Below, piece by piece: positions 49,744-52,903 of a DNA stretch of 64,000 nt. The DNA lies in contig CABZOF010000001.1 of the NCBI GenBank assembly GCA_902527215.1, positions 354,501 through 418,500 of the forward strand, written 5' to 3'. Within the stretch, counting starts at the first letter, position 1. Every line of letters begins with the position of its first letter. The position numbers and the translations under genes were made by a program. Under the pieces are notes generated by a model, which was given only the letters and a program-made list of their open reading frames with translations, did no database searches and was not told the origin of the DNA. Source of the stretch: an uncultured Pelagibacteraceae bacterium (GTDB taxonomy: Bacteria; Pseudomonadota; Alphaproteobacteria; Pelagibacterales; Pelagibacteraceae).

Positions 49744-50069
49744 CCTATTTAGTAAATGATAAATGCATCAAATGTAAATTGATGGATTGTGTTGAAGTGT
49801 GCCCAGTGGATTGCTTTTACGAAGGTAAAAATATGCTTGTAATTAAACCCGATGAGTGTATAGATTGTGGCGTTTGTGAGCCAGAGTGTCCTGTGGACGC
49901 CATAATATCTGATAATGATGATAATGGTGGAAAGTGGTTGGAAGTAAATAAAAAATATGCGGACTTATGGCCTAATATTAGTGAAAAAAAAGATCCACCA
50001 GGAGATCATGAACAATTTAAAAACGTAAAAGATAAATATGAAAAATATTTTAAAGAAAATCTTGAATAA
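49740..50069 (+). CDS. fdxA: 7Fe (3Fe-4S/4Fe-4S) ferredoxin
   Basis: [41 protein letters not shown] overlap with TerB gene. Confidence 0.95.
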
Positions 50070-50871
50070 AAAGAAGACTAAAAAAGTTGTTAAGAAAAAA
50101 GTTAAAAGTGTAAAAAAAAATATTAAAACAAAAAAGGTTGCTAAGTTAGCAAAAGTTAAAAAAGTAACTAAGGTATTAAATAAAAAAAAAATAGTAAAAG
50201 AGACAAAGAAGAAAGATAAAGATAAAGTTGAACTCAAAACTGATCCACTAAGAATACCAAAAAATAACGAGCAAAAACCTGAAATAAAAAAAGTAAAAAA
50301 ACAAGAGACTGAAAAAAGATTATTTAAGGCTAAAGATTATGTCGTTTATCCAAAACATGGAGTAGGACAGATTACGGAAACCAAAAAAATTAACATAGGT
50401 GGAATTGATGTTGAAACTTATATTCTAAAATTTGAAAAGGATAAGGCTAACGGTATGGTACCAGTAAATAAACAATCTCACTTAAGACCATTAGCGACGA
50501 TTAACCAAATTAATAAATGTGTAAGTATTCTGAAAAGTAAACCAAAAATAAAACGTTCAATGTGGAGTAGAAGAGCTCAAGAATATGAAGCGAAAATATC
50601 ATCTGGCAAAATCTATGATTTAGCAGAGGTTGTAAGAGATTTAAATAAAGGGGATGATATAATGATTGATCAATCTTATAGCGAGAGACAATTGTTCGAA
50701 AAAGCTTATGAAAGATTACTTACTGAATTTCAGATGGTGATGGGGTCAAGTATAGAAGATGCTCAAAAAAAACTTGATAAAGCTTTAAAGAGAAATCTAG
50801 AAAATCAAGTAAAGAAGGTTGAGGAAAAACTTGATACTGAAGAGCCAATTAATCAAGAATTAACAGAGTAA
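50038..50871 (+). CDS. CarD/CdnL-like transcriptional regulator with Lys-rich N-terminal extension
   Basis: Core [69 protein letters not shown]; ~94-aa Lys-rich tail before it. Confidence 0.9.
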
Positions 50872-50909
50872 AAAAAAACGCTTCCCACGCAAGCGCCATG
50901 AGAAGCGTT
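50871..50909 (-). terminator. Intrinsic terminator of the 27-aa ORF (stem then U8); weaker bidirectional use for carD
   Basis: Stem aacgcttc 50877-50884 / gaagcgtt 50902-50909, followed on the minus strand by T8 (A 50871-50878). Confidence 0.8.
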
Positions 50910-50931: not shown

Positions 50932-51015
50932 CTATCTTCTTTTTTTCTTCTTAGCTTTTTTCTTAGCTTTTTTCTTAGTTTTCTTTTTAGCAGCTTTTTT
51001 TCTTCTTTTAGCCAT
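50932..51015 (-). CDS. 27-aa polycationic Lys/Arg/Ala peptide
   Basis: MAKRRKKAAKKKTKKKAKKKAKKKKRR*, SD-like GGGAG 7 nt upstream of the ATG, intrinsic terminator downstream; below the ORF-track cutoff. Confidence 0.75.
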   Translation of the reverse strand: MAKRRKKAAKKKTKKKAKKKAKKKKRR

Positions 51016-51202
51016 CTTTAGCTCCCTTTTTTTTATAAACGAATCTTTATGATTCGTTAATAACTAATTTTTATTTTTTTTGAATAGTTATGTCAAACAT
51101 ATAATTTTTTTGAGAATTAAAAAAAAATAATTTTTTTATATTTTTTATTAATTAAAAAAAAGTTAATTAAATCGCTATTAATAAAGTGTTTTTAAAAATA
51201 TT

Positions 51203-52903
51203 TTAATAAAGTTTTTCAAATTCATTTTTATATTTTTGAACAATTTTATATCTTTTAAGTTTTAGAGTTGGAGTTAGCATTCCATTTTCAATTGAAAATT
51301 TTTCATTAATTATAAAAAATTTTTTTATATTTTCTATTCTAGAAAGATTTTTGTTTATATTTTCTATTTCTTTCTCAATTTGATCATTAGTTACATTGAT
51401 ATTATCATCTGATAGAACTAATAATGCAACTAGATAGGGTTTATTGTCTCCATAAACAATTGATTGATCAATTAATTTAGAATTTAACAACTCGTTTTCA
51501 ATTTTAACTGGAGAAATATTATCTCCCCCAGGGGTAATCAAAATATCTTTTTTTCTGTCAGTAATTTTTAAATAACCATTCTCAAAAATGCCAATATCCC
51601 CAGTATGCAACCAACCATCTTTTAAAACTTTCTTAGTTTCTTCTTCATTATTCCAATAACCCAACATTACATTTTCACCTTTTACTAAAATTTCTCCATC
51701 TGAGGCTATTTTTACCTCATTTCCTTTAAACGGGGGTCCTACAGTCTCAACCCTAATATCATTAATTGGGTTGCAACTTACAACTGGAGAGGTCTCGGTT
51801 AATCCGTATCCTTGTAAGGTAGGAAGACCTATAGCATTTAAGAAAATACCAACTTCTTTATCAAGAGCTCCACCACCAGAAACGAAGGTTTTAAGCTCGC
51901 CTCCAAATTGACTTTTTATTTTTTTTCTTACAATTTTTTCTAATATATTATCAATTAATTTTTCTAAAATTGTTAAAGACTGTTTATTTATTTTTTTGGT
52001 TCCTAATGCTAACATTTTTAATATTAATTTTTTCTTTAAACCTGTTGCCTTGTTAAAGCTTGCATTTATCTTTTGAAATAAATTTTGGTAAAACCTAGGT
52101 ACTGCAGTCATTAATTGAGGTTTACAATCATTCATATTTTTAATTAATTTTTCAATACTTTCTGCATAGAATATTTTTGCTCCAACACTTATTTGAACAA
52201 ATTGAACAGTGTGTTCATATGAATGTGAGAGAGGCAACCAGGTTAAAAATCTGGTCTGATCTGTTAGCAAAGGTTTCAATATATCGAGTGCTCCATCACA
52301 ATTATTTAAAATACCACCGTGACTTAAGATTACACCTTTTGGGTTACCTTGTGTTCCTGAAGTATAAATAATACAAGCTGGATCCTCTCTTTTAATGGAT
52401 AAATCCGGTACATTTAAATCTTGATAATCTAAATTAGAAAATAATTTATTAACATTAATATAAGTATCACTGTCTGTATCTAATTCTTCAAAAGAAAATA
52501 TTTTAATAATAAAACTTTTATTTTTTATAATTTCTTTTACTTTATTAAATTGTTCCTGATTGGAAACAAAGATTAATTTTGGATTACAATTATCAATTAT
52601 ATATTCATAATCTTTCTCAGCATAAGTTGTATAAGCTGGCACAGTTATAGCTTCAGATAACATCACTGAAAGATCAGTTATAAACCACTCAGGTCTATTT
52701 TCAGATATTAATAAACATCTATCACCCTTATTTGCATATTTTTTAATTTCTGAAGAAAGTTTTTTAATTGAATGGAATGTTTTTTCCCATGTAAAATGAT
52801 TATTTGTATCTTTTAAAGATTTTAAAAGAATATTATTTTTTTTTTGTTTTTTATAATTAATAAAAAATAGTTCGACTAAATTATTGATATTTTGTGTACT
52901 CAT
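51203..52903 (-). CDS. Long-chain acyl-CoA synthetase (AMP-forming)
   Basis: CIIYTSGTQGNPKGVILSHGGI, GYGLTETSPVVS, GWLHTGDIG, KITDRKKDILITPGGDNISP. Confidence 0.92.
   Translation of the reverse strand: MSTQNINNLVELFFINYKKQKKNNILLKSLKDTNNHFTWEKTFHSIKKLSSEIKKYANKGDRCLLISENRPEWFITDLSVMLSEAITVPAYTTYAEKDYEYIIDNCNPKLIFVSNQEQFNKVKEIIKNKSFIIKIFSFEELDTDSDTYINVNKLFSNLDYQDLNVPDLSIKREDPACIIYTSGTQGNPKGVILSHGGILNNCDGALDILKPLLTDQTRFLTWLPLSHSYEHTVQFVQISVGAKIFYAESIEKLIKNMNDCKPQLMTAVPRFYQNLFQKINASFNKATGLKKKLILKMLALGTKKINKQSLTILEKLIDNILEKIVRKKIKSQFGGELKTFVSGGGALDKEVGIFLNAIGLPTLQGYGLTETSPVVSCNPINDIRVETVGPPFKGNEVKIASDGEILVKGENVMLGYWNNEEETKKVLKDGWLHTGDIGIFENGYLKITDRKKDILITPGGDNISPVKIENELLNSKLIDQSIVYGDNKPYLVALLVLSDDNINVTNDQIEKEIENINKNLSRIENIKKFFIINEKFSIENGMLTPTLKLKRYKIVQKYKNEFEKLY

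Follow-up and report, generated by a model that had tools for sequence, protein, structure and literature searches.

Convergent to carD in a member of the Pelagibacterales lies a reading frame of 27 codons, most of which specify lysine or arginine. Is so short and so highly charged a frame a gene and, if so, what might its product do and how might its synthesis be controlled? These questions were addressed using a 64,000-nt stretch of DNA (the window) from a Pelagibacterales assembly of 1.35 Mb, the best relatives of which are Pelagibacteraceae, together with related genomes across the order.

A short reading frame beside carD

The features at the locus are as follows.

50038 to 50871, plus strand: carD (CarD_TRCF_RID and CarD_C) with a Lys-rich N-terminal extension; convergent neighbour and syntenic anchor
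50869 to 50909, minus strand: intrinsic terminator, AACGCTTCTCATGGCGCTTGCGTGGGAAGCGTT plus U tract, abutting the end of convergent carD
50932 to 51015, minus strand: coding sequence of the 27-aa polycationic peptide, MAKRRKKAAKKKTKKKAKKKAKKKKRR; conserved ATG, frame and composition
51009 to 51026, minus strand: Shine-Dalgarno (SD) sequence, spacer, start codon and codon 2, GGGAGCTAAAGATGGCTA; proposed antisense target
51039 to 51057, minus strand: 5' UTR hairpin or inverted repeat, ACGAATC-ATAAA-GATTCGT, in 147/148 Pelagibacter copies
51067 to 51096, minus strand: predicted promoter, TTGACA (51096-51091), 17-18 nt, TAAAAAT (51073-51067); the box recurs in relatives
51203 to 52903, minus strand: AMP-binding ligase gene, with the peptide gene downstream on the same strand

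An earlier note had drawn attention to a polycationic frame on the minus strand, and translation confirms it: MAKRRKKAAKKKTKKKAKKKAKKKKRR, followed by a stop, contains 16 Lys and 4 Arg (20/27 residues) and no hydrophobic stretch. The SD-like GGGAG that the note had placed 7 nt before the ATG is present, but the intervening spacer (CTAAAG) is 6 nt long. The stem and U tract that it had reported after the stop were also found: the stem has 13 pairs and, with its U tract, occupies 50909-50877 of the same strand. Two terminator-like sites were found, against 0.1 in shuffles. The promoter scan at the peptide gene was not above chance by itself; a TTGACA or TTGACT box stands at the same place in the relatives that were read, and transcription of the peptide gene is predicted to start near 51061.

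Two further observations concern the neighbourhood. Ahead of the RID domain (aa 96-152), the CarD proteins of SAR11 carry a Lys-rich N-terminal extension of ~60-90 residues (50038-50320 of the window, plus strand), and this extension, which adjoins the polycation gene, is itself H1-tail-like. An inverted repeat resembling CGAATC/GATTCG also precedes a lipoprotein-like gene of another genus (locus L432, ~515-545), and the repeat could be a shared regulatory site.

Conservation and selection on charge

The peptide ORF was found at the same place in 73 of 80 carD-syntenic loci from other Pelagibacteraceae, and the seven loci that lacked it were each at most 3.4 kb long and ended near carD. The proposal that the frame is a stand-alone gene is strongly supported. 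Failure of the frame or start codon to be conserved had been named as an observation that would argue against a gene; instead, the ATG was present in 148 of 148 distinct Pelagibacter copies, the SD sequence was kept, and the indels that vary the length of the peptide between 22 and 35 aa preserve the frame. A chance ORF in an A-rich region is ruled out by this conservation.

The check for selection that had been suggested gave a pN/pS of 0.23 over the same 148 copies. Beyond the initial Met, their residues are limited to K, A, R, T and P. Loci L262 and L135 have a form of 20 aa that includes Ser and is too short for the filter applied to the set. Single-base codon differences, counted over sequence pairs and so not as independent events, were either K/R replacements (2446), A/P replacements at codon 2 (47) or silent (2370), and among the 148 copies Lys codons were never seen replaced by codons for Glu, Asn, Ile or Thr. 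This pattern indicates that selection acts on charge and not on exact sequence, with K/R swaps and length changes tolerated. At the level of sequence, these comparisons confirm the 27-aa polycation ORF as a genuine gene.

Relatives of the peptide across the order

A K-rich ORF convergent to carD was found in 13 of the 13 Pelagibacterales genera examined, a count that includes one genome in which the contig ends inside the ORF and a genus (g9) in which the frame from the conserved ATG is short or broken. The 5' UTR element CGAATCA also recurs throughout the order. Outside Pelagibacter the ORF is longer, at 36-38 aa in genus g2, 50 aa in genus g4 and 84-91 aa in the sister family f2, whose proteins read MEELKVIFAKARKKAKKKAAPKKKRKAAK... 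and contain the AAPKKK repeats typical of H1-like tails. The long f2 relatives (L273-L276) start MEELKVIFAKA or MEDLKIIFAAA, a short conserved non-basic N-terminus that is absent from the Pelagibacter form. No K-rich ORF was found beside carD in other Alphaproteobacteria (0/29 loci read). A tblastn search of phages for copies of the peptide was empty, and although 74 viral contigs contain the 16-nt start region described below, none of these has a K-rich ORF.

The proposal that the peptide is H1-like gained indirect support, from the AAPKKK-containing relatives at the same locus and the retention of charge, but none from any curated profile: no family in Pfam, NCBIfam or the PDB was matched by the peptide, nor any in Pfam or NCBIfam by its 50-91 aa relatives, as is expected of so low a complexity. 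A Lys/Ala-rich low-complexity composition, strong in the 84-91 aa relatives, is shared with Lys-rich H1-like proteins of the Hc1, AlgP and BpH1 type, from which the Pelagibacter form differs in lacking a profile match, in being reduced to 20-35 aa and in having a putative antisense RNA partner of its own. Judged by synteny and composition, the Pelagibacter peptide is the shortest form of an H1-tail-like Lys-rich protein found beside carD throughout the Pelagibacterales. Its charge, composition and selection suggest a peptide that binds, coats or condenses nucleic acid, and it is probably disordered or helical.

An antisense match in the rhtB RNA

The start region of the peptide gene provided a lead to its possible control. 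The 16 nt that comprise the SD sequence, the spacer, the ATG and most of codon 2 (GGGAGCTAAAGATGGC) have one other exact copy in the genome, which lies in antisense in the apical loop of a hairpin of the 'rhtB' RNA family (RF01814).

G000:C1:157086-157161, opposite strand to the 16-mer copy: rhtB RNA (RF01814) partner, 76.3 bits; unlinked to the peptide gene and outside the window

The covariance-model score of this partner compares with a gathering cut-off of 55 bits. The family was described in 2009 as a hairpin with a conserved loop and bulge upstream of rhtB, a candidate cis element or terminator whose function was left open (Meyer et al. 2009, PMC2704228).

The rhtB RNA loop, 5'-UAGCCAUCUUUAGCUCCC-3', is a perfect 18-nt complement of the peptide start (51009..51026). 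By genome-wide pattern matching the exact 16-mer occurs twice, the next best site having three mismatches, and in a duplex scan of the 64 kb window the peptide start was the best of 8526 segments (z -6.1). An Rfam scan inside the window gave sub-threshold matches only, one of which, to 'rhtB' (E 0.28), was antisense to the peptide gene and proved to be a real signal.

The complementarity is maintained across genomes. An uninterrupted helix of 14-20 bp was found in 82 of 82 genome pairs in which both loci could be read, these genomes being mostly incomplete single-cell or metagenome assemblies; in 1640 shuffles the longest helix had a median of 8 bp and a maximum of 13 bp. The cofold gain had a median of -17 kcal/mol in the 82 pairs, against ~0 for shuffles. 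Within Pelagibacter the SD, spacer and start region is 99-100% conserved except for a covarying base before the ATG and the first base of codon 2. The spacer CTAAA is held at 99-100% in this genus, which has the RNA, and is variable in genera without it (GAAAAG, GTTAAAG, GATAATG and others). Of two internal departures from the complement, that on the side of the peptide mRNA reads GGGAGCUGAAG and that in the loop replaces GCUCCCGG with GCUCUCGG; G-U wobble pairs remain in both cases. In 34 of the 82 pairs (the MPK lineages) codon 2 is CCT and the loop still matches GCT, so that the helix meets an uncompensated C-C mismatch beyond 14 bp.

At the base immediately preceding the ATG, 66 genomes have G and 16 have A, and the corresponding loop base matches in each (66 G/G, 16 A/A, 0 mixed). 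A search for the A form over 399 genomes found no mixed genome, and where the A form occurred only once a G-form partner was absent. On a tree built from one gene, carD, the A form requires three changes, of which at least two fall on branches with good support; the test for a single origin rejects it (p-AU 2.6e-5). At least two, and up to three, independent G-to-A double switches are thereby indicated, and the covariation between the loci consists of this one position and these 2-3 events.

The rhtB RNA as a predicted transcript

The hairpin stem covaries, with four pairs changed on both sides (reached by none of 500 shuffles), and the loop is fixed. Of 86 loci, 67 have an extended -10 box just upstream of the hairpin on the rhtB strand, and none has one on the other strand; this places the transcription start at the foot of the hairpin, where it is predicted at GATAGTCC. 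The same absence of a box (0/86) led to the rejection of a decoy reading, in which the transcript of the hairpin locus would have the same sense as the peptide mRNA. A U tract directly 3' of the hairpin is found in only 24 of 86 cases. As side observations, the rhtB RNA promoters share TAATGCA near -35 (L003 1482-1557, minus strand; G000:C1:157086-157161), possibly the site of a specific regulator or a sigma preference, and a DUF2805/TIGR03643 gene is divergent from the rhtB RNA (L003 1608-1907, plus strand).

In the genome under study a LysE translocator gene (PF01810) follows the rhtB RNA directly, and the ATG of rhtB often begins 5-14 nt after the hairpin. However, rhtB is gone from 19 of the 58 loci whose flanks are long enough to judge, and there the hairpin is kept with its loop intact, proC, exported proteins or an opposite-strand neighbour standing in rhtB's place. 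Since a pure cis element would not be kept in this way, action in trans is most likely. The idea that a Lys-rich peptide is paired with a Lys exporter proved weak, the downstream protein scoring best against homoserine/leucine efflux models, below cut-offs, and not as a lysine exporter.

RF01814 was above its cut-off in 227 of 397 genomes of the order, essentially in one genus, and the antisense control would therefore be younger than the peptide gene. A search of other genera for RNAs like RF01814 gave weak matches only, the strongest of which (in G427) was on inspection an ordinary terminator-like hairpin. The loop may derive from a duplicated part of the peptide start, since its opposite strand still reads like a truncated one (ATGGCTAGATAG = MAR*, or MAKKDY).

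A proposed antisense switch and its rivals

The explanation that best accounts for these observations, and probably the right one, is that the micro-gene encodes a polycation of nucleic-acid-binding type whose translation is controlled in Pelagibacter by the rhtB RNA, acting in trans as an antisense hairpin. The hairpin would be transcribed from its own promoter at a locus unlinked to the peptide gene, and its apical loop would pair with the SD sequence, spacer, AUG and codon 2 of the peptide mRNA; such pairing would occlude the ribosome-binding site and presumably repress the peptide. Where the rhtB mRNA carries the hairpin as its 5' leader, pairing might also open that leader and affect rhtB, although this is speculative. 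A free sRNA from the hairpin, if made, would be ~50 nt. Points that weigh against this explanation are the C-C mismatch in the MPK lineages, the single covarying position with its 2-3 events, and the small share of loci in which a U tract adjoins the hairpin.

The strongest rival, though improbable, is that the 16-mer GGGAGCTAAARATGGC is a DNA operator through which one DNA-binding protein regulates both units, with the RNA complementarity a by-product. Strand is irrelevant to a DNA site, each copy has a predicted promoter a short way upstream, and one-base co-switching at both sites fits a changed protein specificity. However, one block coincides exactly with the SD sequence, AUG and codon 2 of a conserved gene and the other exactly with the loop of a covarying hairpin; the 16-mer is not palindromic, a third copy within two mismatches is absent, and both internal departures are of the kind that RNA can accommodate as G-U pairs. 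Likewise improbable is a type I toxin-antitoxin-like module, with the hairpin RNA as antitoxin to a polycation that does damage if left unrestrained. In trans-encoded type I pairs such as TisB/IstR-1 an antisense RNA blocks the start of a small-peptide mRNA, and the anatomy is alike here: IstR-1 too is a short RNA hairpin whose unpaired loop can base-pair with a region needed for translation of a small peptide. The product in the present case is nevertheless a polycation and not a hydrophobic membrane toxin, the RNA is often also a transporter mRNA leader, there is no SOS or toxin-antitoxin context, the peptide is present in genera without the RNA, and none was found in phages.

That the hairpin acts purely in cis on rhtB, as a terminator or riboswitch-like element, and that the match to the peptide is incidental or a relic of duplication, is very unlikely. 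Its description upstream of rhtB in 2009 (PMC2704228), the short distance to the rhtB ATG and the resemblance of the opposite strand to a truncated peptide start would all fit, but hairpin and loop persist where rhtB is missing, the loop is invariant when its flanks are not, and its A/G state follows the peptide locus. It is more improbable by far that the ORF is a Lys-rich leader peptide that senses charged tRNA-Lys, with the stem-loop as attenuator. Sixteen of 27 codons are Lys codons and a terminator follows the stop; however, there is no co-directional gene downstream, the terminator being followed by convergent carD in the relatives read, Lys and Arg swap freely, which a Lys sensor would not tolerate, and the family f2 form is 84-91 aa long.

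Discussion

No literature on the peptide or on its link with the rhtB RNA was found in a search of open-licence sources, nor was an assigned trans-acting RNA-mRNA pair in SAR11. These bacteria are among the most abundant in the ocean and are thought to rely on RNA-level control, with few transcription factors (PMC13198564).

The minimum length used by common gene callers is 90 nt and the peptide gene has 84; it is therefore likely to be missing from many annotations, though present in every genus examined. By composition, without profile membership, the peptide alone would be a new and extreme example of the Lys-rich H1-like kind, and with five amino-acid types besides the initial Met across 148 copies it may be among the simplest nucleic-acid-binding proteins known.

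The antisense partner belongs to the published rhtB RNA family, scores 76.3 bits and lies upstream of a LysE/RhtB gene. The motif as published had neither target nor function, whereas conserved complementarity here points to an unlinked mRNA, and persistence without rhtB accompanies it. The link would give an orphan RNA family known since 2009 its first proposed target, one that is single and covarying, and peptide and RNA appear to be two halves of one regulatory switch. The proposed pair also makes the function of the family testable in E. coli with two plasmids.

A broader reading, held with slightly more doubt than belief, is that the peptide is a minimal H1-like coat for the chromosome or for RNA, under the post-transcriptional control of a trans-acting antisense hairpin, often itself the leader of the mRNA for an amino-acid exporter. 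If this is true, the state of the nucleoid or ribosome would be tied to amino-acid efflux, and RF01814 would gain its function.
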